The notes under the pieces: model-generated | What the model was told of the DNA's origin: nothing | The model's input: the letters and a program-made list of their open reading frames with translations, nothing else | The model's database searches: none | Source: Victivallales bacterium | GTDB lineage: Bacteria > Verrucomicrobiota > Lentisphaeria > Oligosphaerales > Oligosphaeraceae | Assembly: GCA_017431185.1 (NCBI GenBank) | Contig: JAFRLP010000508.1 | Span: 1 to 13,173, forward strand | Direction: 5' to 3' | Length of the DNA stretch: 13,173 bases | Shown here: positions 1 through 13,173 of the stretch, piece after piece | How positions within the stretch are numbered: the stretch's first letter is position 1 | Layout: the number at the start of each line of letters is the position of its first letter | Made by a program: the position numbers and the translations under genes

Positions 1-303
1 GCGAGGGTCATCCGCGCTGTCACAGGCGCCAGTTTCAGGATTCCACGAAAAAAGGAGACCATGAACATGTGCAAGGCGGAACAGGAGTTGTGCGAAGAGG
101 CAGAGAGAATCGGTGAGACAAGAGGCAAGGAAGCGGGAATGCAAGCGGGAATGAAAGCGGGCAGGAAGGTAGGCAAAGAAGAGGGCATTCTGGCGTACGT
201 GGCCAGGCTGCTGCGGATGAACGTCAGCAGGAAGGATGTCCTTGTCGCCTTGTGCGAGGATTTTCATCTTTCACGTGAAAAGGCGCTGACCTACCTGCAA
301 TAG
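1..303 (+). CDS. C-terminal tail of a probable Rpn/PD-(D/E)XK nuclease-transposase-like protein (5' end outside window)
   Basis: The frame is open from base 1 to the TAG at 301-303, giving 100 codons. The visible part has a MNMCKAEQE segment, a charged Gly-rich repeat (KEAGMQAGMKAGRKVGKEEG), then a short helical end (VARLLRMNVSRKDVLVAL). From family knowledge, an 'MCKA...E.G...G...G' stretch followed by a small helical bundle is the usual C-terminus of Rpn-family recombination-promoting nucleases; the catalytic nuclease domain would lie upstream of the window. The alternative is a free-standing small protein: GGAG at 54-57 precedes ATG at 61 (3 nt gap) and ATG at 67 (9 nt gap), and the latter is well spaced. 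I prefer the partial-gene reading because the frame stays open upstream and the tail-like composition makes little sense alone. It ends 9 bases before the end of the convergent AraC gene. The Rpn link is inferred from composition, not from catalytic residues. Confidence 0.55.
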   Translation, partial: ARVIRAVTGASFRIPRKKETMNMCKAEQELCEEAERIGETRGKEAGMQAGMKAGRKVGKEEGILAYVARLLRMNVSRKDVLVALCEDFHLSREKALTYLQ

Positions 304-312
304 GCATCAGGA

Positions 313-1239
313 TTATGGCGTGGCGGGAATATGGTTTTTCCGGTAATCGGAAGGTGACACGCCTGTTGAACGGGAAAAGACCGATGAGAAATAGAAGGCG
401 TTTGGGAAGCCGAGTTTTTCCGCAATCTCCTTGATGGAGTCGGTGCTGTTCTTCAGCAGGTACTGCGCTTTCTCCACTTGAAGGCGCTGGCGGTAGGCAT
501 GGGGTGTGACACCGATGTATTGCTTGAACAGGCGGAAAATTGAACGGATGCTGACCCCACAGCCTTTCGCCAATTCCTCGATGGAACTGTGCCGTCCACT
601 TTCGGTCTCCATGATTTGCAGCAACGCCATAACGGATTTGGGGATTTCCTTCAGCTCATTCTGGTTTTTATTGATGCAGTCGGCCAGAAACAGCAGCAAT
701 TCATGGCAGCGGAGGGAGTTGAGCCAGGACTCTGCGGGATTCTTCTGATGCAGAAGCGTGAAGAACTGCTCCAGCCGACTGCGGAAAAAATCCCCATCCT
801 CCTTGGCAAAGCAGAATTTGAAGCCGGCCATGATTTGCAAGGAGTCCATGATGATTTGCGCGTTGCATCCGGAAATCAGCAGTTGCAGTTGCCGGGACTC
901 CTCCGTCCCGGCATTGCGCATAATCACAGTATCGCCTGGTCTGGTCACAAACAGTTCTCCGGGGACAAGTACCGTCTTCTGCCCGTTCTGGATATAAATC
1001 ACCTCGTTCTCCAACTGCAACTCCAGCGCAATCTGATGGTAGTTCTGCCGTGTCAAATGCCATTGCCCGTGCCGCGTGTTGTCGGCAACCTGGTGCGCCC
1101 ACAGCACCGATGAAAACGGATAGACATCATACCAGTCCTCCAGACGGTTCCGATGAAGCATCCGCTCATATCCCGGTGAATAGATGGTGACCGAATTTTT
1201 CGCCTCCCGCAGCGTCAGACCCGGTTTCAGTTTTCTCAT
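313..1239 (-). CDS. AraC-family transcriptional regulator of cassette 1
   Basis: This 308-residue protein has a typical AraC layout. The N-terminal half (about 15-195) is a poorly conserved sensor domain with a cupin-like run (ENEVIYIQNGQKTVLVPGEL then PGDTV, about 78-104). The C-terminal double helix-turn-helix spans about 200-303. Helix-turn-helix 1 is around SIEELAKGCGVSIRSIFRLF with the linker GVTPHAYRQ. Helix-turn-helix 2 is around SIKEIAEKLGFPNAFYFSSV with the family signature FSRSTGVSPSDYRK. I chose the ATG at 1239 because AAGGAG lies 5 nt upstream (1250-1245). A longer reading from 1317 adds 26 residues but has no such site and would run through the likely promoter. The gene diverges from the pseudopilin at 1381 across 141 AT-rich bases, so it probably regulates that pseudopilin and the DUF4838 gene in response to a sugar. 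The ligand is unknown. The family call is secure. Confidence 0.93.
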   Translation of the reverse strand: MRKLKPGLTLREAKNSVTIYSPGYERMLHRNRLEDWYDVYPFSSVLWAHQVADNTRHGQWHLTRQNYHQIALELQLENEVIYIQNGQKTVLVPGELFVTRPGDTVIMRNAGTEESRQLQLLISGCNAQIIMDSLQIMAGFKFCFAKEDGDFFRSRLEQFFTLLHQKNPAESWLNSLRCHELLLFLADCINKNQNELKEIPKSVMALLQIMETESGRHSSIEELAKGCGVSIRSIFRLFKQYIGVTPHAYRQRLQVEKAQYLLKNSTDSIKEIAEKLGFPNAFYFSSVFSRSTGVSPSDYRKNHIPATP

Positions 1240-1264
1240 TTTTTCTCCTTGGTAAAAATGGTAT

Positions 1265-1318
1265 GTATTTGGCATTAAATTATATGGTTTTCCACAAAAA
1301 TCAAGTTGTATTGGCATT
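1265..1318. promoter_or_regulatory. Candidate AraC operator: direct repeat GTATT(T)GGCATT
   Basis: GTATTTGGCATT (1265-1276) and GTATTGGCATT (1308-1318) are near-identical direct repeats. Their GGCATT cores are 42 bp apart, about four helical turns and twice the 21-bp spacing often seen for AraC half-sites. One copy lies at the expected transcription start of the AraC gene; the other overlaps the -35 of the pseudopilin promoter. This fits joint autoregulation and activation. Binding is inferred. Confidence 0.4.
1279..1284 (-). promoter_or_regulatory. Probable -10 box for the cassette 1 AraC gene
   Basis: Read on the minus strand this is a perfect TATAAT, 40 bp before the AraC start codon and 28 bp before its AAGGAG site. 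No good -35 hexamer sits 16-18 bp upstream (the 17-bp position reads AACTTG), so the promoter may be weak or need an activator. Confidence 0.45.
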
Positions 1319-1333
1319 TTTTCAGATTATATT
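1306..1333 (+). promoter_or_regulatory. Probable sigma70-type promoter for pseudopilin 1
   Basis: TTGTAT (1306-1311), a 16-bp spacer and TATATT (1328-1333) lie about 50 bp before the ATG at 1381. The -35 overlaps the second copy of the GTATTGGCATT repeat, as expected for a promoter activated by an AraC protein. AAGGAG at 1367-1372 is the ribosome binding site, 8 nt before the start. Confidence 0.45.
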
Positions 1334-1380
1334 AAAAATCATAACCTGTTCAATCAATCAACAGCGAAGGAGTTTGCCTT

Positions 1381-2166
1381 ATGGTACAAAACAAACGCCA
1401 TACCTTTACTCTCATAGAACTTCTGGTTGTAATAGCCATCATCAGCGTTTTGGCGGCCATGCTGCTGCCGGCGTTGAGCAAGGCGCGGGAGAAAGCGAGG
1501 GGGATCAGTTGCCTGAACAACTTCAAATCCATCGGCATTGCGAGCCTGTTCTATTTCGAGGACTATGATTGCATTCCTCCATATTTGGGGCTTGATTCCA
1601 CCGAGGCAGTCGGTCCCGCCTGGTGGAAGGAGAACCCTGCGAACGGTCTGCTGACCCAATACATCACTGGCAATGCCAACAGCGCCGTGCTGGGCGGATG
1701 GTGCAGCAAAAGCGGAATCCTTTATGCCAGCAAATACCATTGTCCCAGTCGTAACGCCGAGCCTCGGTCAGCCAGTGAAACCCTGAGTACCGGATTGGGG
1801 CTGAACAGCATGCTCCACTGGAAAGCCCAAGGTCTTCGAAACGGTGGCAGGCCTTTTCCAACCAAGTACCGGGTTTCAGGGGTCAAGCGCCCATCCCGCG
1901 GAATGTTGTTCATGGAAAGGAAAATGGACTACGGGCGAAGCGATTTTACCGTCAGCTACAATTTCAACGAACAGACGGGTTCCACCGGCGAGCATCTCGG
2001 AGCCTTCCCGCATGTGGGGAAAGCCAATGTCCTGTTTCTGGACGGCCATGTCGCGTTTATGAAACCGCAACAGATTCCCGACAACAAACTAAGGCCGAAC
2101 GGCAATGATGCCGCCTACAAGTCCACCTTTTGGGATCCCTTCACATTTACCAACGACAAATGGTGA
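1381..2166 (+). CDS. Prepilin-type pseudopilin with H-X9-DG motif (cassette 1)
   Basis: This 261-residue protein opens with a short basic leader (MVQNKRHT), then [12 protein letters not shown], a hydrophobic helix up to about residue 31, and an amphipathic continuation (SKAREKAR). This is the N-terminal cleavage/methylation domain of type IV pilins and type II secretion pseudopilins, with Glu13 as the conserved Glu at mature position 5. The residue before the cleavage point is Thr8 rather than the classical Gly. The soluble domain carries HCPS (120-123), VKRPSR (168-173) and, near the end, His211-X9-Asp221-Gly222, the 'H-X9-DG' processing-associated motif. AAGGAG (1367-1372) precedes the ATG by 8 nt. 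The stop overlaps the start of the next gene (ATGGTGA at 2160-2166), so the two are probably translationally coupled. The protein is expected in the inner membrane with its C-terminal domain outside the cytoplasm; its exact job is unknown. Confidence 0.92.
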
Positions 2167-4640
2167 AAAACATGTCCCAAAGTTTTCCGTTTCTTCTGGC
2201 GATTGTCCTTTCCTGCGTTACGCTTTTCGGCACCCCTTCCGAATTGGTGGTGGCCGACCAGGGCAAGTCCGCATATACCATCGTCTATGCTGACAGAGGT
2301 TCCGCTGAAATCAACGTCATGGTCAAGGAAAGCGCCCGGACGCTTCAGCAGATTGTACGCCTGGCCACCAATGCGGAGTTGCCATTGCAGCCGGAAAGCG
2401 CATTTACTGGAAACACGCCCGCCATTTTCATCGGCAGAGTCGCCGTCCTGAAGCACAACGAGCCGGAAAAACGCTGGGCCAGCCATATTCGTGCAGAAGG
2501 ACAGAATCTCTTTCTCTGGGGGGATGACCGGAAATGCGGTCCTCCGAACCAGGATCGTCCCGACTCTTTTCGCTCCTTTATTTTGGGGACGCACCATGCG
2601 GTGCTGCACTTCGCCCAGCGCTTTGCGGACGCGGTGTTCCTTGTCCTGCCTGACTTGAAGCATTCCATTCCCTTCACGGGAAAGATCACGGTTCCTGCCG
2701 CATTTTGCGATGACCAGATTCCTCAGATAGAATACTGCATTGCCCGCGGCAAAGGACTGAATTACGATTTGGGCAACAACTATCGCTATGCCCCATGGAA
2801 CCGGACTTTCGGGGGACACTCCCACACCAAGGCCATTCCGTGGCAGCAATACTGGGAGACCCACCCGGAATATTTCTGGAAAGCGGCACCGGACAAACCG
2901 CCATTCTGCTACAAGCCACGTCCGCAGTACTGCCTTTCCAATCCCGAGGTCAGGGAACTGATCTACCAGCATTTGGTACGCGAGCTAGACCAGGGCTACG
3001 AGCAGGTCCAGCTAGGCCAAAGCGACAGTTTCCACACTTGTTACTGCACGCAATGCATCAAAGACCGAGGGGAAATTTCGTCTGGGGGATACCTTTGGCG
3101 GATGCATCGGGACATGGCTCTTCGTCTGATGAATGACCGTCCTGGCAAACGGGTGGTCATCATGGCCTACGGCCCCACTTGGGAACCGCCAAAGACCTTT
3201 GACAATTTTCCCCCGAACGTCACCATCGAATTGGCCAGTTTCGACCTGAAAGAGGCCGTGTCACCCGGCAGCGCCTGGCAGCGGTGGCAGACCTTCACCT
3301 GCCCCAAAGTGGTCTATCTTTACACATGGGGCTACTACAATTACGCGGGTTTCACACCCAATGCGGATTTTGCCAGCCTGTCCCAGCAGGTGAAACTCTT
3401 CCGTGACGCAGGGGTGGTTGGAATATATCGTTGCGGTTTCGGAGAGCAGCCTGGCCTGGAAGGACCTGAATACTTCATCTTCGGACAACTGCTGGACAAC
3501 CCCTCTGCGGATGTCCGTGCGCTCCTGCACCGATACTGCCGACAAGCCTTCGGCAAAGCCGGTTCAACAATGGTGCAATTCTTCACGATTCTGGACGAGG
3601 CGGTGAAGAGCAAGGAGCCGTATATCAGCGATTGGAACAAAGACATCAATCCCTCCAGAAAGCAATTCCGTCGTTTTGACCTTGAACTGCTGGCGGAACG
3701 CTATCCTGAAACACGCCTGAACCAACTGGAAAACCTGCTGAACCAGGCGGAAGCCCTGGAGCAGACACCCATGCTCAAAATCGTGCGGGCTGAATATACG
3801 CTGCTGAAGCATAGCGCACGCTGTGCCGCGCTGTTCTGGAAGGGCATGACAGAACGGACAGCCGAGAATGCCAAAGCCTTGATGAACGCCGTGCTGTCAC
3901 GTTCCGAATACATCGATTCCCTGCCGTCCGATGAAAAAGGCGTGTCGCGTCTGGAGGATGTCATTCTCTATGGCGGAAGCACCAAGGATGTCATAAAAAT
4001 CGGCGGACGGCTGAACTGCCTTTTCAACGCTCCCTTCCATTGGAATCTTGAAGCCATGAAAGCAGGGAATATCCTTCCCTTTGGCCGCACTCTGATCGCT
4101 GACGGCAAGGACACCCAGTTCCTGGTTCCCATGTGCATGGATGACCGTACGCCTCCCACCGTGAAATTCGAGCGCACTGTCCAGGTCCGCGCCCGCCAGG
4201 AGGATTCCAGGCTAATCATTTCACTCATCGGGAAAAACCTGAATCATGAAAACCGCAAGAGGCTGCGGCTCAGGATCAAACTGGGACCGGACAAGGGGCA
4301 GCGTCATCAGGTATTCGGCGCATTTGCCAACGGCGCGCTCTCCGACAGCGTGCAGGATGGTTTCATCACCGACCCGCACATCAACGGACAGCAGGAAAAA
4401 TGGGTTCCATCCAGCGCATTGCGTCCCTTGGTGAAATGCCCGACGCCGGATACGGCGGAAGTCACCATTCCCTTGGACAAGTTTGGCGGAAAACTGCCCC
4501 GTCCCGGCGATAAATGGCTCTTCAATGTCGCTGTTTACGTGCCGAACCGAGTGTTCGCGGGCGGTCTGGTCTGGGAAGCCGCCCTGGACCACCTGGACTG
4601 GCAGCAAGCCTTTGAACGAGAGGGGACCCTGCGCTTCTGA
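2160..4640 (+). CDS. Secreted DUF4838 glycosidase-like protein with C-terminal carbohydrate-binding-like domain
   Basis: This 826-residue protein has a signal peptide (hydrophobic [16 protein letters not shown], about 9-24). Residues about 28-170 ([20 protein letters not shown] and following) resemble the N-terminal domain of alpha-glucuronidases. The DUF4838 core (about 185-500) shows HPEYF (235-239), QYCLSNPEV (256-264), [12 protein letters not shown] (288-299), VVIMAYG (332-338), PPNVTIE (351-357) and YTWGYYN (388-394). A helical region follows (about 500-600). The last part (about 610-820, with [18 protein letters not shown] and [10 protein letters not shown]) looks like a CBM9/DOMON-type beta-sandwich. 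DUF4838 proteins are related to GH67 alpha-glucuronidases, but activity is not established here. The start at 2160 overlaps the pseudopilin stop. ATG 2172 is possible, while 2130 would lie well inside the pseudopilin. Neither 2160 nor 2172 has a clear ribosome site, consistent with coupling. The CxCxxC cluster (294-299) may bind a metal or form disulfides. Confidence 0.88.
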
Positions 4641-4691
4641 AAGTGGTTGGCGGCTCGTTGTTAAAACCGCAATATATACCCCTACTGCAAT

Positions 4692-4715
4692 CCGCGAGGC
4701 CTGAAGGCCTTGCGG
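4692..4715 (+). terminator. Strong hairpin after the DUF4838 gene, possible transcription terminator
   Basis: CCGCGAGGCC (4692-4701) pairs with GGCCTTGCGG (4706-4715) around a TGAA loop, giving ten pairs with one G-T wobble. It starts 52 bases after the DUF4838 stop. Only TTT follows, after a short gap, so it is not a classical intrinsic terminator. It may be a processing or stability hairpin, or part of the repeated element it overlaps. Confidence 0.4.
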
Positions 4716-4824
4716 GCAAGTTTGGGGTCTTCACTCCCTGCACACCAGGTTTTACCGCTGTATATTGAAGGCCTCGCGGGCAAGTTGGGGGTCTTCACTC
4801 CCTGAATGCCAGATTTTATGGTTG
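4702..4824. repeat. Two-copy 59-nt intergenic tandem repeat
   Basis: Copy 1 (4702-4760) and copy 2 (4766-4824) match at 50 of 59 positions with a 64-bp period; the first 39 positions differ at only two. Each contains GGGGTCTTCACTCC, able to form a small stem with a CTTC loop (six pairs in copy 2). Only copy 1 has the upstream arm that makes the large hairpin. The region 4641-4867 holds no plausible gene; the rest is unremarkable apart from the small palindrome CACTACTAGTG at 4849-4859. With two copies and a 5-nt gap this is not a CRISPR array. Confidence 0.75.
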
Positions 4825-4867
4825 ACCTGTCAAACAAGGACGATAGCTCACTACTAGTGTATCCTCA

Positions 4868-5452
4868 CTAGCCACTAACCACTGCCTTCCACCGCACTCC
4901 CTGGGCGGCGGCCCAGGAGGCCAGGCGGCTGTCCACCAGGTCGCCGTTCTGCACGGCGGCGGACAGCACCTGGGGCAGTTCCTCCAGAGAAACCAGTTTT
5001 AGGGAGATATCCTCCCCCTCTTGCAGATTGCGCTGATGCAGCTGGTTAGCCGGGCTGTCTTCGGGAATATCCATAAACACCACAGAGACCAGCTCGCCGC
5101 TCAAGCCGGCGGAACTGCTGCATGGGCCGGTCTGCCAGGTCACCGTGCCCTCATAGCCCGTCTCCTCCTTCAATTCGCGGACGGCTGCCTGCTCGACGGT
5201 CTCCCCTGGGTCAACCAGACCCGCCGGCATCTCAATGACAAAAGAGTTGACAGGCGGGCGGAACTGGCGTATCAGGATGACGCGGTTGCTTGGACGCAAT
5301 GTCGCCACCACCAGAGCCGCCAAATTGGTGCCAGGCCGCTGTGCCGCTTCCCATTTGCGGGCAGCGCCCGTCGCATCCGTCCAATGAATCAAATCCAGCC
5401 GCAGGAAACGTCCTTCGGCCAAGTGTTCGGTTGTGTCACAATGAGGAAACAT
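4868..5452 (-). CDS. Nudix hydrolase, ADP-ribose pyrophosphatase type
   Basis: This 194-residue cytoplasmic enzyme has a complete Nudix box at residues 78-100: Gly78, Glu84, then RELKEETGY (92-100), matching G-x5-E-x7-R-E-U-x-E-E-x-G-U. The preceding IRQFRPPVNSFVIEMPAGLV is typical of the ADP-ribose pyrophosphatase subgroup, where a beta-hairpin before the box contacts the substrate. Such enzymes cleave nucleoside diphosphate derivatives, mostly ADP-ribose, to AMP and ribose 5-phosphate using Mg2+. Length fits the family. The ATG at 5452 is the only good start before the fold, but no Shine-Dalgarno site precedes it; an AAGGAGG nearby (5456-5462) faces the other strand. It lies 59 bases downstream of the cassette 2 AraC gene in the same direction and could be cotranscribed with it, though no functional link is evident. 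The family is secure; the exact substrate is inferred. Confidence 0.92.
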   Translation of the reverse strand: MFPHCDTTEHLAEGRFLRLDLIHWTDATGAARKWEAAQRPGTNLAALVVATLRPSNRVILIRQFRPPVNSFVIEMPAGLVDPGETVEQAAVRELKEETGYEGTVTWQTGPCSSSAGLSGELVSVVFMDIPEDSPANQLHQRNLQEGEDISLKLVSLEELPQVLSAAVQNGDLVDSRLASWAAAQGVRWKAVVSG

Positions 5453-5511
5453 TCTAAGGAGGAGTTTGGGTGATTGGTTTGGAAAGTTTTGAAGAAGAAC
5501 TACAAAGACTA

Positions 5512-6444
5512 CTACCTGTTTTTGAAAATTGCTCTTTGACGTACAGCAAGTGGAGTGAGACCAGTCATTTTTCGGAAAAGACGACTAAAGTAATTGGCGT
5601 CTGAAATGCCGATGGCGGAGGCTACGGCTGATATTGGCAGAGAAGTGTCTTCAAGAAGCCTTCTGGCGCGGCCAATTCTGAGGTTTAACTGATACTGACG
5701 TGGGGTAGTCCCTGTTGTCATGGCAAAATGACGCATCAGGGTAGCCTTTGACACATGTGCGATATGGCATAAGTCGTATATGCTGACCTGCTCGTGATAA
5801 TGGCGATTCAGGAAGGAAATGACCTTGGAGCACTCCTGATGCGTGGCATGGCTTGCCTCACCGCCACCTTGGTAGTTTCGGATAAGCACGCTCAAAATGC
5901 TCATGTAATTGCCCAGAGTGGCGAAGGCAAATCCTGGAGGACGGTTCAAGTTATCGTCTCGCATTCTCTCGCAAAGAGACCGAATCATCGGCAATTCGCT
6001 GTCAGGTAGGTGCATTTGAGCGAATTTAACGCCTGATGGAGGTTTGCCAAGGTAAAAGGCGCTGAATCCAGGCAGGTGCGCCACATCCAACTGTGGCAAT
6101 GGCATATTTGCGGGGCGAACCAGCAAATTGAGCAGCACCAGTTTCTCACACTGTTCGTATGCGTGATAAACTCCCTCTGGTATGCAGAAGACATCGCCTG
6201 CACCGATGACATCTCGCCGTCCTGCCGTCACATGCACGCCTCTGCCCTCGAAAACCAGCACCAATTCCACAAAGTCATGGCAGTGACGAACCCTGTCATG
6301 TTGATATTCGAACCAAGTCGGCACAATCGGCAAAGTGCGAAGCACTTTTGGAGAAGGAAAAGCATAGAAGCTTCCCCGTCGCTCATCATAGGGTTGCTCC
6401 ATGGCAAGCGACATGTGTTTCATGCTCTGGCTGATATTTCTCAT
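5512..6444 (-). CDS. AraC-family transcriptional regulator with cupin sensor domain (cassette 2)
   Basis: This 310-residue protein has an N-terminal cupin domain (about 25-115). The stretch HCHDFVELVLVFEG (54-67), GAGDVFCIPEGVYHAY (81-96) and His54, His56, Glu60 and His94 match the sugar-binding 'AraC_binding' cupin pattern. The C-terminal double helix-turn-helix (about 205-305) has SIYDLCHIAHVSKATLMRHF with TGTTPRQYQLNLRI, then LPISAVASAIGISDANYFSRLF with RKMTGLTPLAVR. It is more canonical than the cassette 1 regulator and only distantly similar to it, so the two cassettes probably answer different signals. I kept the ATG at 6444. It has no clear ribosome site, and Met8, Met11 or Met15 could be the true start because the fold begins near residue 20. 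It diverges from pseudopilin 2 across 247 AT-rich bases and likely controls that gene and the two downstream glycosidase genes. Confidence 0.93.
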   Translation of the reverse strand: MRNISQSMKHMSLAMEQPYDERRGSFYAFPSPKVLRTLPIVPTWFEYQHDRVRHCHDFVELVLVFEGRGVHVTAGRRDVIGAGDVFCIPEGVYHAYEQCEKLVLLNLLVRPANMPLPQLDVAHLPGFSAFYLGKPPSGVKFAQMHLPDSELPMIRSLCERMRDDNLNRPPGFAFATLGNYMSILSVLIRNYQGGGEASHATHQECSKVISFLNRHYHEQVSIYDLCHIAHVSKATLMRHFAMTTGTTPRQYQLNLRIGRARRLLEDTSLPISAVASAIGISDANYFSRLFRKMTGLTPLAVRQRAIFKNR

Positions 6445-6500
6445 TTATGAACCGTTATGGACAAAACGATGACACGAACCGCCTTTGAAGATTAAAAGCC

Positions 6501-6530
6501 GTTTTCAAGACTTTATTCCAGTTTTCTAGA
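6501..6530. promoter_or_regulatory. Candidate AraC operator: direct repeat GTTTTC(A/T)AGA
   Basis: GTTTTCAAGA (6501-6510) and GTTTTCTAGA (6521-6530) agree at 9 of 10 positions and repeat every 20 bp, about two helical turns, as expected for AraC half-sites. They sit just downstream of the predicted start point of the AraC gene, so they may serve autorepression. Binding is inferred. Confidence 0.4.
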
Positions 6531-6536
6531 AATAAT

Positions 6537-6564
6537 ACTATATATCCTAATTTAAAACTTGCAA
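6537..6564 (-). promoter_or_regulatory. Probable promoter for the cassette 2 AraC gene
   Basis: On the minus strand, TTGCAA (6564-6559), a 16-bp spacer and TATAGT (6542-6537) form a plausible sigma70-type promoter. The expected start point is near 6530, leaving a leader of about 86 nt before the ATG. Confidence 0.45.
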
Positions 6565-6594
6565 CTTTTATGCTAATTAAAGCGACTTTTTTCC

Positions 6595-6623
6595 TTGCAA
6601 GCAACCTGAAAAATACGTATATT
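6595..6623 (+). promoter_or_regulatory. Probable sigma70-type promoter for pseudopilin 2 and downstream glycosidase genes
   Basis: TTGCAA (6595-6600), a 17-bp spacer and TATATT (6618-6623) lie about 70 bp before the ATG at 6692. This is the best-spaced promoter in the window. The -35 hexamer is the same self-complementary TTGCAA used by the divergent AraC promoter 36 bp away. GGAG at 6681-6684 is the ribosome site, 7 nt before the start. Confidence 0.5.
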
Positions 6624-6691
6624 AAATGATAATCTCTAACCAGAACATTGAGTATGCTTCCCAGAGCATTTAAAACACCCGGAGACTGTCC

Positions 6692-7339
6692 ATGAAAAAG
6701 CAGCGGATTTTTACTTTAATTGAATTGCTGGTCGTCATCGCCATCATTGCCATTTTGGCGGCGATGCTGTTGCCTGCCTTGTCAAAAGCACGGGACAAGG
6801 CACGACTGACCTCATGCACCAACAACCTGAAGCAGCAATCAACATCAAACCTGATGTATGTCAACGATTGGGAGGACTACAATATCCCTGGCTACTCCAA
6901 TTACGGTACCAAGGCGGGGCAGAACTCGGCATTGACTGCTCCATATTGGATTTATCACCTTTACACCTACCTTGGAGACGCTTCGGTGAAAGTAGCTCAA
7001 TGTCCTTCGGAACCCAAAGGATGCGGTCCGTACTATTTTTGGATGATGGATCCCCCTGGCAAACAGTTTGAACGGGTGGGTTACGCGATGAACACCCGTC
7101 CAGGCTACTGGTACCAATGCTATAGGATGACCAACTTCAAGCGTCCCTCTTATGTTTCTCAATACCTTGACCAGACCTTTCCTGTCATGGCCGATTGCCC
7201 CGAGAACATGCACTCAAACATCTACTGGCCTCACAACAACCGCGAAAACATGAGTTTCCTGGATGGTCATGTCCAAGCGCTGACCGCCACCGAGTACCAT
7301 TTCCCAAATTACGGGCTTGGCAACGCCTCCACCTTCTAA
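6692..7339 (+). CDS. Prepilin-type pseudopilin with H-X9-DG motif (cassette 2)
   Basis: This 215-residue protein is a paralogue of the cassette 1 pseudopilin. The leader is only MKKQRI, followed by [12 protein letters not shown], a membrane helix to about residue 30 and SKARDKAR. Glu11 is the conserved mature Glu5, and the residue before the cleavage point is Ile6 instead of Gly. The outer domain has QCPS (103-106), FKRPS (149-153) and His181-X9-Asp191-Gly192 near the end, in the same order as in the first pseudopilin, but the sequence between these motifs is quite different and rich in Tyr, Trp and Asn. GGAG (6681-6684) supports this start. It heads a likely transcription unit with the two glycosidase-like genes; the next begins 60 bases downstream. 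It is expected in the inner membrane with an exported C-terminal domain. A role in secretion or enzyme display is inferred from neighbours. Confidence 0.92.
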
Positions 7340-7399
7340 ATGCCTAGACAATAGAGCAGACCATCAATTCCGTTCTTTCCACCTGTCACGAGAAACAAC

Positions 7400-10240
7400 A
7401 TGCAAAAAATATCCGTTCTCCTGCTTTTTTTCGCCATGACATGTCCGCTTCAGGCAGTCGGCAATTACCTCGTAAACGGTACGATGTCCGAACTGAATCA
7501 GCAGGATACACCCGCTGGATGGATGATTCAGTCTGGCTGCTGGCGCACTTTGCCAGACGGCGTGGAACTTTCCCCTGACCCAGAAAAACCTGGTAAAGTC
7601 TCCTTTGTTCAGATGCTGAAACTGCCTCTGGACAGCTGGTTGAAGGTCGGGGCAAAAGTGACCGCCCCTACTGGCACGCGCTTTCGCATCTATGTCGAGC
7701 ACCACACTGCTGAGAAGGAACCAGCCAAGCGCAAATACGGCTCCTCTGGGGCGGTATGGATGACAGGTGACGGAACAGAACAACTGTATTCACGCACCTT
7801 TCAAGTCAAAATTCCCTATGCCTACTGCTATGTGGCAGTCCAAACGGATGGCACAGCTCCAGTGACTTTCCGCGGACTCTTTGTCGAGCAAGACAAATCC
7901 CTTCAATGCCTGGGAGGAAAATGGAGGGTTGCTCCGCCCCATCAGCTCAACAATGGTGAAATCGAATGTGTAGGGAGAAAGGGAATGGTGACCATTCAGG
8001 ACATTCCAGTGCGTCCAGGGGCACATTATCGCCTGGAGTACGAGGCCCGCGGACTAGACGAGGCCAAAACGGTGACAGGCTTCCATGAAATCCAAAGCCG
8101 CATCACCCCTTCGGTGAACGGCTCCTTCGCGTTTAACGACGTCGGCGCTGTCGCCCAGCGCAAGTTCCAGATTTTCACCGTGCCGAAAGAGTCCAATGTG
8201 CAGACCATCGCCTTTTCCCTTCAGGTGGCCAACGAGGGCAAGGTCCTGTTCCGTGACTTTACTCTTGAGGAAATACCTGTTGATCCGACTGCGGACTGGT
8301 CGCTCCGTCTGGACACGCCGTTCTACCGTAACCTTATCTTTGCCAGCGATAAAGACCGAGCTGTAGCAGGAACCATTTTGGCAGACGCCACTGCCGCCCG
8401 AGGAAAACTCACCCTCACCCTGCCTGACGGTTCGCGCCAGACGTGTGAAATCGCCTTCACCAACGGAAAGGCTGCCTTCCATTTTGCCCCCTGGTCAGGC
8501 ACACCAGGCGGTGGTGAACTTGCCGCCGAGGTGGTGGCGGAGGATGGTCGCTCCCTGCGGACATTTACCGAGCATATCCGTTGGCTTGAGCCGCTTGAGC
8601 AGGAGGTCAAAGCCCATCCCAACGGCTATTTCACCCATAATGGGCAGTGGGTTTTCCCCATCTGCAAGTGGGGGGCGATGCCCGATCAAGAGCAGGAGGT
8701 CTATTTCCTTGCCAGGCAGGGATTCAATGTAGTAAAAACGAATTTTGACTGTACTCCGCGTCGAATGCTGGAACGGCTGGATATGGCGCACCGTTACGGA
8801 CTAAGGGTCTTCATCCATTCTGGCTGTCCCAGAAGCGAGAGTGACGTGCCCAGACATCTGGAACGGGTGCATCGTCTGTTCATTCCGTCAATCCTCGCCC
8901 ATCCTGCCTTCATGGGGCATTTTCTGGTGGATGAGCCGCTGTGGGCGGGGCTTTCCCATAAACCACTGCGGGCTGTGTATGAGGATTTGCGCGAACTTGA
9001 TCCTGGGCATCCTGTCTGGATTAATGCCGCGCCGCGCAACGAGATCGGCGATCTTCGCCCATACGGGGAGTGCTGTGATATCTACGGTGTGGACATCTAT
9101 CCTGTCCCCTGGCCAAATAGTCACTCCGCATTGGAGGACAAAACTCCCAGTTCATGCGGCAAATACGCCGCCAGAATGGCAGAGGTGGTCTATGGCCGCA
9201 AACCCATTTGGGACGCATTGCAGGGTTTCGCCTGGCACGAATGCACCAATGACCGCTGGAAACCGGAGGCCGTCAAACCGTATCCCACCTTGACGCAGGC
9301 GCGTTTCATGGCCTACGACACACTGCTCTCCGGCGGAACAGGCTATGGTCTATGGGGCATGAGTTATATCCAGCACAATGAGTTCTACGAAGTGTGTTTT
9401 CAGGTGACCCGTGAACTGTCCGCCATGTCCGCACCGCTGCTGCATGGTGCGCGCCGTGAACTGACGACCTCCGAATCGGCTCTCCGCGCCGTGGAACTCA
9501 CTCTGGACGGCAAGTTCTATTATATCATCCTCAACATGACCGAAAAGCCTGTGAAAGCCGCTGTCCACGCCACGGTCAAAGACCTACAGGACCATGCCAG
9601 CGGAGCATCGGTTGATTTCACCTCCATCAGCCTGGACGGCTATGGTGTCATCACCTGTGGAGCCCCTCTTCCTCCGCCTGTCAATCCGCTCCCCGCGTCC
9701 AATGCCGATTTTGACCGAATGGGTTCGCCGTATCCCGCCCTCATCCAAAAGATGAAGGCTGAAGCGCTCGCCAAAAAATACGACGGCTCCGCAAAATGGA
9801 TTTGGGACGCGACGACCACCCAGCCAGGCGGCTCCTGCCTGGCGGTCAAGGTCATCGATGTTCCGAACACCACCGTCGGCTCCTCCATTCGCTTCGCATG
9901 CGATGATTTCGCCACCCTCTTTGTGAACGGGGAGAAAGTGCTCGACTGGAAGGAGAAATGGAATTGGATGGCCGACGTTGACCTCACCCCTTTCCTGCGC
10001 AAAGGACGCAATGTCATCGCCATTCTGGGGCGGGATGCTGGTGCGCTCCCCTGTGGCATTCTAGCCGAAATCCGGGTCGGAGCCGAATGCTATCCCACAG
10101 ACGAGTCCTGGCGGACGTTCCCCGAAAACGACGGCCAGGGCATTCTCCCCGCCGATTCCGAATTGGACAAAGGGCGGCCAGCCGCCGTCATCGCTCCCTA
10201 TGGCGGCGGAGCATGGGGCAGAAATGTCAGAATGAAATAA
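7400..10240 (+). CDS. Large secreted multi-domain glycosidase-like protein (TIM barrel plus galactose-binding-like domain)
   Basis: This 946-residue protein has a signal peptide (MQKISVLLLFFAMTCPLQA, cleavage after about residue 19). The mature start NYLVNGTMSEL...PAGW is typical of CBM4/9-like beta-sandwich modules; a second such region may span about 170-292. A beta-rich linker (about 300-395) leads to a probable TIM barrel (about 405-680) with GFNVVKTNFD (441-450), GHFLVDEPLW (506-515), DIYGVDIYPVPW (560-571), KPIWDALQGF (601-610) and GGTGYGLWGMSY (645-656). Asp511-Glu512 lies where clan GH-A enzymes carry the acid/base, but I cannot assign the nucleophile or the GH family. Residues about 797-893 (SAKWIWD, DDFATLFVNGEKV, DLTPFLRKGRNVIAI) match the galactose-binding-like sandwich of alpha-rhamnosidase-type proteins. 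The ribosome site before ATG 7400 is weak. It is probably cotranscribed with the pseudopilin (60-nt gap) and the next gene (61-nt gap). The substrate is unknown. Confidence 0.87.
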   Translation: MQKISVLLLFFAMTCPLQAVGNYLVNGTMSELNQQDTPAGWMIQSGCWRTLPDGVELSPDPEKPGKVSFVQMLKLPLDSWLKVGAKVTAPTGTRFRIYVEHHTAEKEPAKRKYGSSGAVWMTGDGTEQLYSRTFQVKIPYAYCYVAVQTDGTAPVTFRGLFVEQDKSLQCLGGKWRVAPPHQLNNGEIECVGRKGMVTIQDIPVRPGAHYRLEYEARGLDEAKTVTGFHEIQSRITPSVNGSFAFNDVGAVAQRKFQIFTVPKESNVQTIAFSLQVANEGKVLFRDFTLEEIPVDPTADWSLRLDTPFYRNLIFASDKDRAVAGTILADATAARGKLTLTLPDGSRQTCEIAFTNGKAAFHFAPWSGTPGGGELAAEVVAEDGRSLRTFTEHIRWLEPLEQEVKAHPNGYFTHNGQWVFPICKWGAMPDQEQEVYFLARQGFNVVKTNFDCTPRRMLERLDMAHRYGLRVFIHSGCPRSESDVPRHLERVHRLFIPSILAHPAFMGHFLVDEPLWAGLSHKPLRAVYEDLRELDPGHPVWINAAPRNEIGDLRPYGECCDIYGVDIYPVPWPNSHSALEDKTPSSCGKYAARMAEVVYGRKPIWDALQGFAWHECTNDRWKPEAVKPYPTLTQARFMAYDTLLSGGTGYGLWGMSYIQHNEFYEVCFQVTRELSAMSAPLLHGARRELTTSESALRAVELTLDGKFYYIILNMTEKPVKAAVHATVKDLQDHASGASVDFTSISLDGYGVITCGAPLPPPVNPLPASNADFDRMGSPYPALIQKMKAEALAKKYDGSAKWIWDATTTQPGGSCLAVKVIDVPNTTVGSSIRFACDDFATLFVNGEKVLDWKEKWNWMADVDLTPFLRKGRNVIAILGRDAGALPCGILAEIRVGAECYPTDESWRTFPENDGQGILPADSELDKGRPAAVIAPYGGGAWGRNVRMK

Positions 10241-10301
10241 AATTGGGGTACCCCCTCCAGTTTTGTCATGCAGGGAAACAGATTTGCCAACAGGACATGA
10301 C

Positions 10302-13173
10302 ATGCCGAACATGAAAACCTTCCGCTTATGCCTACTCTGTTGCCTGTCTGCCGTACTCTGCCGCAGCGGGGAGAATCTGCTAAAGCGGGAAGGATGGACT
10401 TTCCTGCCCGTCGCAGATGCAAAGGGAGAGCGTCTCTCACTGGCTGACGGGACGGTGGAATTGTCCAAAACCTCCCCTGACGGGCACATCTTCTACCATT
10501 TCATCCCTGGTGACCTGAAAATGGAACCAGGGCAGGAGTATTTGGTCGAGGCGGATTATGAATGCCTGGACAGCGGTGTGCAGGGTTTGCTAATGGTTTC
10601 CATGCCTGGAAGCGCGCGGACACCCTATCCGACATCACGACCATTGAGTGGGGTTGGCAGGCCACTGCATGCCGCCGTGACCTTTCGCGCCAAAGTGGAC
10701 GAGACGAAAATCCGCATTCACTTCTGCCTCAAGGGACAGGGGCGGGTGCGCCTGACCTCCGTCACGGCACGCCCTTGGCAATCCCCCGTCAATATGCTGG
10801 AGAATCCTGCACTGGATTGGGCTGTGCGCACACCCCTGAATGCAGAGGGGTCGATGAAGCGGGATGGACATGCCTTTGTCATCACCAAGACGGGGACGAA
10901 AGGATACCTTGCCTTCGTGCAAGTGCCAGATATCCCGATAACGCCTGGCAAGAGCTATCGGATTGAAATGAACGTGACTCGGCTCGATGAAACGGCGACA
11001 TCCTCCATGATGGTCTCCATGCCAGGCGGCAAGCGCACACCATATCCCACAGTGGCGGCCATGGCCGCAGTCGAAGAAGCAGAGACTCTGGAGTACATTT
11101 TCACCGCTAGGGAGGATGAGACGCTTCTGCGTCCCCATCTGCTAATCAACGGCGAAGGACGCGTGCGCATTGATGGTTTTATCCTGGAGGAACTTTCAGT
11201 AAAACGGCTGCATGAACTTGAGAATGCCAGAAAAGCACGGCAGCATTCTTTTGATGTTTCCGCCTTACGGCGGTATTTTCGCCCTTTTTCGCAACTTCGA
11301 GCACGGCTGGAACGCGGGGCACTGGCCATGGATGGAGCGGTCAACTCTGGCTTCTCCTGTGAGTCGCTCTCCTGGCATGCCTCTGACATTCAGATGCTTT
11401 GGGTACGCTTCGCCTCCGAGGCTGGTGGCTATCTGCGAATGGACTTCACGTCGCAGTACGGTGGAGACACCCACTCTTCCATGCTGACCTGTTCCTCCTA
11501 TCCAGATGGCGAATGGCATGACCTCGTTTTTTTCGTTGGGAAAGACCCTGTGTGGAAAGGTGAAATCATCAGTATAAAACTGACCTGGATAGGGGGAGTA
11601 GGCCGTCGCGCCATTGCCGCATTGGAAGCGTTGCCAACCCCCAACGCCATCCCCTTTGCAGTTGCTCTTCCGACAGGAAAACCAGTGATTTTGGAGCATA
11701 TCAGTCCTCGCGGAAATTACACTCTTCGCTGGCAAGGCGGAGATAACCCAGGCTGTACGCTCACCTTTCTGGACAGAAACGGGAACACGCTGGCTGTCAA
11801 CCAACTCCCGCCTGGCGAAGAACGGCTCACACTGACTTGCCCGGAATTGGCGGTCACCGCCAAAATCGTCCGCAACGACGGAGCTGGCTGTCCTGTGCTC
11901 ACATTGGACAGTCTGCCCCCGCTTGACCCGCCCGATACTTACTGGCACGGCTGTTGGATATGGTCGCAAAGCGTCCCAGGTCCTATCAACACCACCGTCT
12001 GGTTTGAGCGTGATTTCACCTTGGAAAGCCTTCCTGCCATTGCCGAATATGTCGGGGTTGGGGATGACTCATTCGAACTGCATCTCAATGGCCAGGTGTT
12101 TTCTGGCGGCGATGACTGGAGCACCCCTGTCAGAATACCAGTCGCCCGCGCACTGCGCGTTGGATATAACCGAATGATGGTCAAAGTCCATAACATTGGA
12201 GCCTGGGGCGGTATGCTCGGTGAACTCTATATGGAAAACGGGGACGTTTCTCGGCTGATTGTCAGCGACGGCAGGTGGACTTGCTATGTGGGCGGGGAGA
12301 CGCCCCCTGAAAAATGCGACCAGGAAGTGGTGGTGCTGGGCGCGCCTCCTGTTGCCCCATGGAATGCCAGAGTGGGCTATCTGTATGTTGGGCCACGCGG
12401 TCAAGTGCGAATCACCGCAACCAGGCCAGGCGGTTGCACACTGACTGTTCTGAAGTCGCCGACCGTCAGCACTTCACATCTGCCCTTCCGCCTCTCCATG
12501 CCAGACGGCACATCCCGCCTGTTCACCGCCCAGGTCACCCCCGCGACAAACGTCTGGAAGACAGGAGAGAACGTTGAGCTGTCCTATAGACTGCCGCCCT
12601 GTCCGCCAGGTACACAAGCCTACCTGGCCGCCGATTTTCTCCATGTAGAAGGAGATGCGGATGTAGGTGCTCCGCCCATTGCGGAACCGCCAAATGGCCA
12701 GCTCGCTACCGCTAAGGTTGAAGGAACAGGACAACGCGCCTGGTTCGTCATTGATGGCCAGAAAGTCCCGCCCATGTATTTGGATTTTCCTGGAGGATAT
12801 CTGGACAATCCCGCCGCCAGGCGCTATCTGCTCGACAATGCCAAGGCAATGGGCTGCCGTCTGGTCCGTTTCCTGGGGGGGCGTTTTGATGATATCTGGA
12901 AAGCGCCAGGAAAGTATGACTTCACCCTGCTTGACCGCAGTCTGGAATATCTGGAGATCAACGCGCCTCGCATGAAGGCCATTGTCATCATTCAATGCGC
13001 CACTCCCCGATGGTGGATGAATGCTCATCCGAATGAGGTTACCGCATACGCCGATGGGCATCCCATTCATCCTCAGAAGGACCGACAGTCACTGGCCTCA
13101 AAAAAATGGCTGGAGGACGGCGGTGAGGTGCTTCGCGCCATCATCAGGCACATCAAATGCAGCCCCTACTCTA
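10302..13173 (+). CDS. Very large secreted glycosidase-like protein, GH42/GH-A-like barrel, 3' end outside window
   Basis: The frame is open without a stop for 957 codons to the window edge. The start at 10302 (MPNMKTFRL) has AGGA (10292-10295) 6 nt upstream; ATG 10311 is in frame but farther from it. A signal peptide (LCLLCCLSAVLC) is followed by two homologous beta-rich modules (about 24-158 and 163-298). Each contains VSMPG, RTPYPT and GRVR at matching positions 139 residues apart. Next come a region without recognised family (about 300-540) and a galactose-binding-like domain (about 548-645: CWIWSQ, FERDFTLE, GDDSFELHLNG, LRVGYNRMMVKVHN). The final part (about 820 on) begins a TIM barrel: PPMYLDFPGGYL, AKAMGCRLVRFLGG, GKYDFTLLDRSLEYLE, ATPRWWMNAHPNEV and SLASKKWLEDGGEVL, resembling beta-galactosidase-like GH42/GH-A enzymes. 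The catalytic residues should lie beyond the window, so the family and substrate stay open. Confidence 0.85.
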   Translation, partial: MPNMKTFRLCLLCCLSAVLCRSGENLLKREGWTFLPVADAKGERLSLADGTVELSKTSPDGHIFYHFIPGDLKMEPGQEYLVEADYECLDSGVQGLLMVSMPGSARTPYPTSRPLSGVGRPLHAAVTFRAKVDETKIRIHFCLKGQGRVRLTSVTARPWQSPVNMLENPALDWAVRTPLNAEGSMKRDGHAFVITKTGTKGYLAFVQVPDIPITPGKSYRIEMNVTRLDETATSSMMVSMPGGKRTPYPTVAAMAAVEEAETLEYIFTAREDETLLRPHLLINGEGRVRIDGFILEELSVKRLHELENARKARQHSFDVSALRRYFRPFSQLRARLERGALAMDGAVNSGFSCESLSWHASDIQMLWVRFASEAGGYLRMDFTSQYGGDTHSSMLTCSSYPDGEWHDLVFFVGKDPVWKGEIISIKLTWIGGVGRRAIAALEALPTPNAIPFAVALPTGKPVILEHISPRGNYTLRWQGGDNPGCTLTFLDRNGNTLAVNQLPPGEERLTLTCPELAVTAKIVRNDGAGCPVLTLDSLPPLDPPDTYWHGCWIWSQSVPGPINTTVWFERDFTLESLPAIAEYVGVGDDSFELHLNGQVFSGGDDWSTPVRIPVARALRVGYNRMMVKVHNIGAWGGMLGELYMENGDVSRLIVSDGRWTCYVGGETPPEKCDQEVVVLGAPPVAPWNARVGYLYVGPRGQVRITATRPGGCTLTVLKSPTVSTSHLPFRLSMPDGTSRLFTAQVTPATNVWKTGENVELSYRLPPCPPGTQAYLAADFLHVEGDADVGAPPIAEPPNGQLATAKVEGTGQRAWFVIDGQKVPPMYLDFPGGYLDNPAARRYLLDNAKAMGCRLVRFLGGRFDDIWKAPGKYDFTLLDRSLEYLEINAPRMKAIVIIQCATPRWWMNAHPNEVTAYADGHPIHPQKDRQSLASKKWLEDGGEVLRAIIRHIKCSPYS

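Follow-up and report, generated by a model that had tools for sequence, protein, structure and literature searches.

The Planctomycetes-Verrucomicrobia-Lentisphaerae group encodes very large families of DUF1559/H-X9-DG proteins whose function is unknown. In the available text of two reports, the DUF1559 (PF07596) family numbers 74 members in Rhodopirellula baltica (PMC2754498) and 68 in Planctopirus limnophila (PMC10632474). The closest described system is an alginate cluster of Verruconatronum alginivorum (Verrucomicrobiota), which contains a pulG-like pseudopilin and appeared, with one proteome per treatment, to respond to alginate as one upregulated operon. According to the same available text, this genome encodes 67 pseudopilin homologues, and a pseudopilin is also the product of a further over-expressed gene that lies outside the clusters (PMC13274419). 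In Planctomycetes, dextran has been located on pili-like fibres, as far as the available text describes them (PMC5394234). The expansion of pseudopilin/DUF1559 proteins and one pseudopilin-bearing alginate operon (2026) have thus been published. The stretch studied here, referred to as the window, comprises positions 1 to 13,173 (13,173 nucleotides) of contig JAFRLP010000508.1 from a Victivallales bacterium of the Lentisphaeria (GCA_017431185.1). It carries two units in which an AraC-family regulator, a prepilin-like protein (pilin) and an exported protein follow one plan. In a related Lentisphaerae metagenome-assembled genome (MAG), G001, this regulator-pilin-exported-protein plan is a rule and not a coincidence, and its AraC part holds in a second genome, G164, as well.

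From left to right, the window contains the end of a small open reading frame (ORF), AraC1, PIL1, a DUF4838 protein, a NUDIX hydrolase gene, AraC2, PIL2, a 946-amino-acid exported protein and a third exported protein. Gene calls and profile matches agree that the same arrangement occupies both halves, as originally predicted: AraC on the minus strand, an AT-rich gap, then pilin and exported protein on the plus strand. Unit 1 consists of AraC1 (313-1317, minus strand; HTH_18 E 2e-22), PIL1 (1381-2166, plus strand) and the exported DUF4838 protein (2160-4640, plus strand; DUF4838 E 1.4e-31), whose start at 2160 overlaps the end of PIL1 at 2166. Unit 2 consists of AraC2 (5512-6444, minus strand; HTH_18 1.5e-21, AraC_binding 1.2e-9), PIL2 (6692-7339, plus strand), the 946-amino-acid protein (7400-10240, plus strand) and the third exported protein of 957 amino acids (10302-13172, plus strand), which runs past the end of the window. 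The divergent gaps are AT-rich as claimed, with 70% AT at 1318-1380 and 66% at 6445-6691 compared to 46% for the whole window. AraC1 probably starts at 1239, because the alignment with its 76% identical relative begins only at residue 30, and the gap of unit 1 then extends over 141 bp (1240-1380) with 71% AT.

Comparisons within the window confirm that regulators, pilins and enzymes differ between the units while order and orientation are kept. The two AraC proteins align over only 86 residues of the helix-turn-helix (HTH) region (33% identity), PIL1 and PIL2 are likewise 33% identical, and the DUF4838 protein matches neither the 946-amino-acid nor the third exported protein at E<=1e-3. A tandem duplication of the cassette was therefore rejected, and calling the units two copies is misleading. 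A NUDIX gene lies between them. Within unit 2, the 946- and 957-amino-acid proteins have about 110 residues in common, at 29% identity.

Pilin genes are numerous in these genomes, and the totals for G001 and G164 are lower bounds. At least 150 N_methyl pilins are encoded in the 5.5 Mb of G001 (150 of 262 candidates were scored, all above the cut-off) and at least 150 in G164 (150 of 341 candidates scored, together with 150 of 216 AraC candidates); G065 encodes 51. Positions of profile matches across whole genomes, which are independent of our home-made gene calls, were compared with counts expected under uniform placement. In G001, 19 of the 150 scored pilins are directly divergent from an AraC gene (1.6 expected) and 26 lie directly downstream of a GntR gene (1.2 expected), giving 45 with one or the other position. 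A pilin also lies directly upstream of 37 of the 94 DUF4838 domains used (1.8 expected), 13 of the 107 listed rows having been dropped as second pieces or as falling below the cut-off; these numbers indicate a huge expansion of DUF4838 in G001. G164 has 13 AraC genes with a pilin in the directly divergent position (1.9 expected). A further 15 AraC/pilin pairs in that genome lie on the same strand, with the AraC HTH 1-3 kb upstream of the pilin; codirectional order therefore exists too.

The exported-protein part of the plan was assessed in a sample of G001 comprising 1.50 Mb, 90 contigs and 1155 home-made gene calls, with 67 pilins and 36 AraC genes. These calls miss genes (84 raw ORFs encode pilins in the same sample), and export was called by a crude, home-made signal-peptide rule. 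A same-strand exported protein of at least 350 amino acids comes next after 33 of the 67 pilins, compared to 76 of 1052 other genes (Fisher 4e-18) and to 18 of 82 small exported proteins that are not pilins (Fisher 5e-4). A divergent AraC gene lies upstream of 12 of the 67 pilins and of 20 of the 1052 other genes (Fisher 7e-8). When contigs chosen for their pilins or cassettes are left out, a long exported protein still follows 21 of 42 pilins and a divergent AraC gene precedes 7 of 42; these figures omit the nine members of one ten-contig set that had been picked from the pilin list, along with contigs C100 and C12. The next same-strand gene begins within 100 bp for 52 of 61 pilins.

The neighbours were also scanned with profiles. 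Among 46 same-strand upstream neighbours (of 47), matches were found to GntR (13), Peripla_BP_3 (12), Peripla_BP_1 (6) and LacI (3). Among 54 downstream proteins (53 of 58, plus the DUF4838 protein of the window), they were to DUF4838 (15), Laminin_G_3 (4), CBM9 (4), GH123_N (3), Glyco_hydro_20b (3) and GH42 (2). With 33 of 67 pilins ahead of a long exported protein, pilins do not lie beside random gene families, the finding that would have refuted the original prediction, despite single unrelated neighbours. The predicted link between pilin, regulator and exported protein extends over the whole of G001 and, for AraC, of G164. Two units in one window could by themselves arise by chance; the genome-wide counts show that the plan as such does not.

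The term glycosidase, which the original prediction applied to the exported proteins, has weak support, and their export was called by the home-made signal-peptide rule. One contains DUF4838. The 946-amino-acid protein has no Pfam match, and only a C-terminal stretch (residues 797-942, matched by model NF041573 and by lectin chains) is of lectin/rhamnosidase type; relatives of this protein occur in 89 of 148 Lentisphaeria genomes. The third protein matches GH42 below the cut-off (E 0.0073). A search of PDB sequences returned nothing for the DUF4838 protein or for the third exported protein.

Both pilins possess the N-terminal prepilin helix with FTLIE and Glu5, and both exceed the N_methyl (PF07963) cut-off (E 1.7e-7 for PIL1, 3.1e-7 for PIL2; AF2 models have pLDDT values of 89.8 and 79.3). 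PIL1 is also above the cut-offs of the DUF1559 (3.4e-11) and H-X9-DG (TIGR04294; 1.4e-6) models. PIL2 reaches 21.8 bits with DUF1559, under the cut-off of 23.3, and has no match to TIGR04294 at E<=0.01. The H-X9-DG motif reported earlier is nevertheless present in both proteins, as H211/D221-G222 in PIL1 and H181/D191-G192 in PIL2, where the three residues are nearly invariant among relatives. Scores with Verru_Chthon cassette protein D (TIGR02596) are 21.9 and 29.1 bits, below the curated cut-off of 70. The pilin heads share one common scaffold with hypervariable loops rich in tyrosine and asparagine, and are enriched compared to other exported proteins in Tyr/Trp (8.6% versus 5.5%) and Asn (7.2% versus 4.1%). 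Foldseek gave no match at E<=0.001 for PIL1 among viral structures or for PIL2 in the PDB. Only type IV pilins appear as a head family among the aligned matches, and another family could still exist.

Textbook prepilins have glycine (or alanine) at position -1 of the cleavage site, before FTLIE. This residue is threonine in PIL1 (within 1381-1419) and isoleucine in PIL2 (within 6692-6724). Among the 67 pilins of the G001 sample it is glycine in four and alanine in one, and 27 of 118 public relatives (alignment A3) have glycine. Three pilins on contig C30 of G001, which also has a T2SSE match, carry C, S and H. Either the prepilin peptidase tolerates other residues at this site, or cleavage fails in many of the proteins and they remain in the membrane. 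A motif scan for the peptidase found none in the loci examined, which cover only part of each genome.

If each pilin were matched to its enzyme, as the original prediction proposed, heads and enzymes should co-vary. Across 45 pilin/enzyme pairs from G001 and the window, no such co-variation is seen (Mantel r -0.008; 2782 of 5000 permutations as high). The result is similar for the 19 pairs with a DUF4838-like enzyme throughout (r 0.12; 443 of 5000) and within enzyme families D and E (171 and 177 of 500 permutations as high, respectively). Across genomes, 23 of 32 best pilin matches adjoin an enzyme of the same family (8.3 expected), and heads linked to family E are more similar within the family than between families (0.081 versus 0.044; 0 of 1000 shuffles as high, compared to 241 of 1000 for D). 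These two results were set aside because orthologous loci are included in them. With the genome held constant, the three DUF4838-linked heads rank 1, 2 and 4 of 48 (1 of 10,000 random draws as high). The same heads rank nearly as high against the other enzyme family, and the family-specific excess is therefore not significant (2265 of 10,000 for D and 3336 of 10,000 for E; raw E, 5539 of 10,000). Pairs from outside G001, after removal of orthologues, leave a small excess for E (0.063 versus 0.048) and none for D (0.040 versus 0.048).

Twelve enzyme pairs exceed the similarity cut-off, eight of them with at least 58% identity, and in six of these eight the head is retained (57-86% identity). 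The other two are candidate pilin swaps. At L066 and L067 the enzymes are 73% identical and the adjacent heads 33%, a value within background (mean 28%, 95th percentile 33.5%); at L020 and L021 enzymes that are 88% identical adjoin heads with identity down to 41%. The remaining four enzyme pairs (42-53% identity) have heads at 25-33%. A pilin adjoins at least 15 of 33 DUF4838 relatives and at least 15 of 38 relatives in the family of the 946-amino-acid protein, both of them minimum counts, since the flanks of many loci are short. In the latter family, the side on which the pilin lies, upstream or downstream, varies between genomes. The Mantel, genome-constant and close-pair tests do not bear out a strict pairing of pilin head and enzyme family.

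What does persist is the cassette itself. Of the two units, only unit 1 has a three-gene ortholog in G001, on contig C100, with identities of 76.5% for AraC, 65% for the pilin and 73% for the DUF4838 protein that follows it. Beyond these genes the context differs, with another codirectional gene in G001 and the NUDIX gene in the window. Ratios of nonsynonymous to synonymous substitution (dN/dS), obtained with our own NG86 script, are 0.11 for AraC, 0.19 for the pilin and 0.14 for the enzyme, at dS values of 1.3-1.4 that are near saturation. As judged from these alignments, the conserved entity in unit 1 is the block of three genes. The 946-amino-acid protein of unit 2 retrieved one relative in a contig search, at locus L001 of G001 (33% identity), where the order is AraC (minus strand), pilin and enzyme (both plus strand), and a second pilin and a further exported protein come next. 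The cassette is passed on as a block over short times, with head and enzyme not locked together. The original interpretation is supported as to linkage, with unit 1 conserved as a block, and is not supported as to the matching of pilin to enzyme.

Each of seven genomes has 12-14 T2SSE-type matches, some of which are fragments of a single gene or score below the cut-off. In the three genomes counted (G001, G164 and G065), by contrast, pilin totals vary by a factor of about three or more. With so constant a number of matches, many pilins must therefore share few machines. As far as MAGs of uncertain completeness can show, none of the seven genomes has a SusD match, and the TonB plug has no match at E<=0.001 in G001, G164 and G010. 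G001 and G164, the two richest in pilins of the three genomes counted, are therefore without a match to either. No SusD or TonB-dependent SusC was found among the window proteins scanned. The usual surface apparatus of a polysaccharide utilization locus (PUL) is therefore lacking, or nearly so, in these genomes.

We favor an explanation in which glycans are captured by inducible, exchangeable pilins that use common machinery, each enzyme operon having one; our confidence in it falls a little short of even. The plan that recurs in Lentisphaeria comprises a sugar-type regulator (a divergent AraC, or a codirectional regulator of the GntR/LacI type), a pilin as first structural gene, and at least one exported, probably carbohydrate-active protein, and its excess over chance is plain from the counts above. 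The regulator would respond to a sugar from one polysaccharide and switch on pilin and enzyme together. Assembly of the pilin would fall to one of a few type IV pilus or type II secretion machines that many pilins use in common. The head of the pilin, in which hypervariable loops rich in Tyr and Asn sit on a conserved scaffold, would hold the polysaccharide of that operon at the cell surface, where the exported enzymes could act on the captured substrate. The pilin would then fit the substrate of the operon and not the neighboring enzyme protein, and pilins could be exchanged. Glycan binding by the heads is suggested by their composition and by the variability of their loops. On present evidence, substrate capture remains the best function to propose for the pilin.

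Several observations weigh against this explanation. In G001, 105 of the 150 scored pilins have no directly adjacent AraC or GntR gene. SAICAR synthetase, ribosomal protein S16 and TrmO each occur once among the 54 downstream neighbors. Short gaps are usual in other genes too (532 of 733), and the three closest homologues of the 946-amino-acid protein have no adjoining pilin. Tyr-rich loops also suit protein-protein contacts. Assembly of these pilins into a pilus is not certain, because most of them lack glycine before FTLIE. Finally, G009, G065, G028 and G004 have one to four TonB plugs.

The main rival to glycan capture is a dedicated secretion adaptor, with each pseudopilin bringing the neighboring enzyme into a type II secretion system. 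This role would suit N-termini closely related to PulG/GspG and neighbors that are exported, and the authors of the V. alginivorum study suggest, in its available text, that a type II system could export alginases (PMC13274419). An adaptor should co-vary with its enzyme, which these heads do not do, and two of the eight close enzyme pairs have far more diverged pilins; we regard this role as unlikely. We also doubt that the pilins are generic pilus subunits, placed under sugar regulators by happenstance, whose heads vary through drift or under pressure from phages or immunity and have no role tied to the glycan of an operon. The missing co-variation agrees with such subunits, as do pilins that lie upstream, downstream or nowhere around homologous enzymes and the large families of unknown function in Planctomycetes. 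The strong preference of pilins for a place right behind a regulator and ahead of an exported protein argues the other way, and so does the dN/dS of 0.19 for PIL1. Display, in which the head would anchor the neighboring enzyme on the pilus or cell surface, draws on the linkage of pilin and exported protein, the short gaps and the overlapping genes of unit 1, but it requires the same co-variation as an adaptor and is quite improbable. Chance adjacency was rejected as having next to no probability. In 5.5 Mb with at least 150 pilins some neighbors are inevitable, but the counts in G001 and G164 exceed the uniform expectation 7- to 23-fold, with peaks at a single orientation and distance.

The NUDIX gene between the units (4868-5452, minus strand) encodes a protein with no relative at E 1e-8 among the loci compared. 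The ORF end at 1-303 has a repeat-like stretch rich in Gly, Lys and Glu, and its only matches, below the cut-off, are of the FliH type. Consensus-like promoters are present on both strands of the unit 1 gap, in a window total of 10 that is near the 7.2 +/- 2.8 of shuffled sequences.

Set against described systems, the Lentisphaeria plan has partial precedents. The alginate operon of V. alginivorum is alike in placing a pseudopilin within a polysaccharide-degradation operon in a genome with many paralogues. It differs in that a single locus is described, and the available text states no genome-wide regulator-pilin-enzyme rule; its proteome supports co-expression of pilin and enzyme in a relative (PMC13274419). 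The DUF1559 families of Planctomycetes have the same Pfam domain and many paralogues, and in the available text of the reports their function is unknown and no link to sugar operons is made (PMC2754498, PMC10632474). The dextran-bearing fibres of Planctomycetes offer a precedent for a fibre that holds polysaccharide, in another phylum and, in the text available, with the fibre protein not identified (PMC5394234). As far as these sources go, both the V. alginivorum operon and the dextran fibres fit glycan capture. In Ruminococcus albus, a pilin-like protein is implicated in adherence to plant fibre; there, by the available text, it belongs to one pil/sec locus that is not induced on cellulose, with no pilin per enzyme operon (PMC4300822). 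The words pilin and pilus are absent from four further articles (PMC6388578, PMC10880615, PMC5615132, PMC7142884). A genome-wide regulator-pilin-exported-protein rule, its extension to GntR and a negative test of matching were not found in the open-licence papers searched.

The position rule of sugar-type regulator, pilin and exported protein gives many members of these families a testable role, and predicts for each such pilin an operon and hence a glycan to try. A bolder form of the capture explanation is a pilin-based counterpart of the PULs of Bacteroidota. Each inducible enzyme operon would contribute its own pilin, with a hypervariable head to catch one polysaccharide. Hundreds of such interchangeable heads would be pushed out and pulled back by a few shared pilus machines, which would haul in glycans in a manner similar to the uptake of DNA by competence pili. 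We put this forward as a speculative possibility that is rather unlikely. The SusC/SusD loci of Bacteroidota unite, under inducible control, a regulator, enzymes and a protein that handles glycans at the surface. In the Lentisphaeria plan, with no match to SusD in the seven genomes or to the TonB plug in G001, G164 and G010, the pilin takes the place of the glycan-handling protein in the gene order, and the rule thereby offers an answer to how bacteria rich in exported sugar enzymes but without SusCD might retain their substrate.

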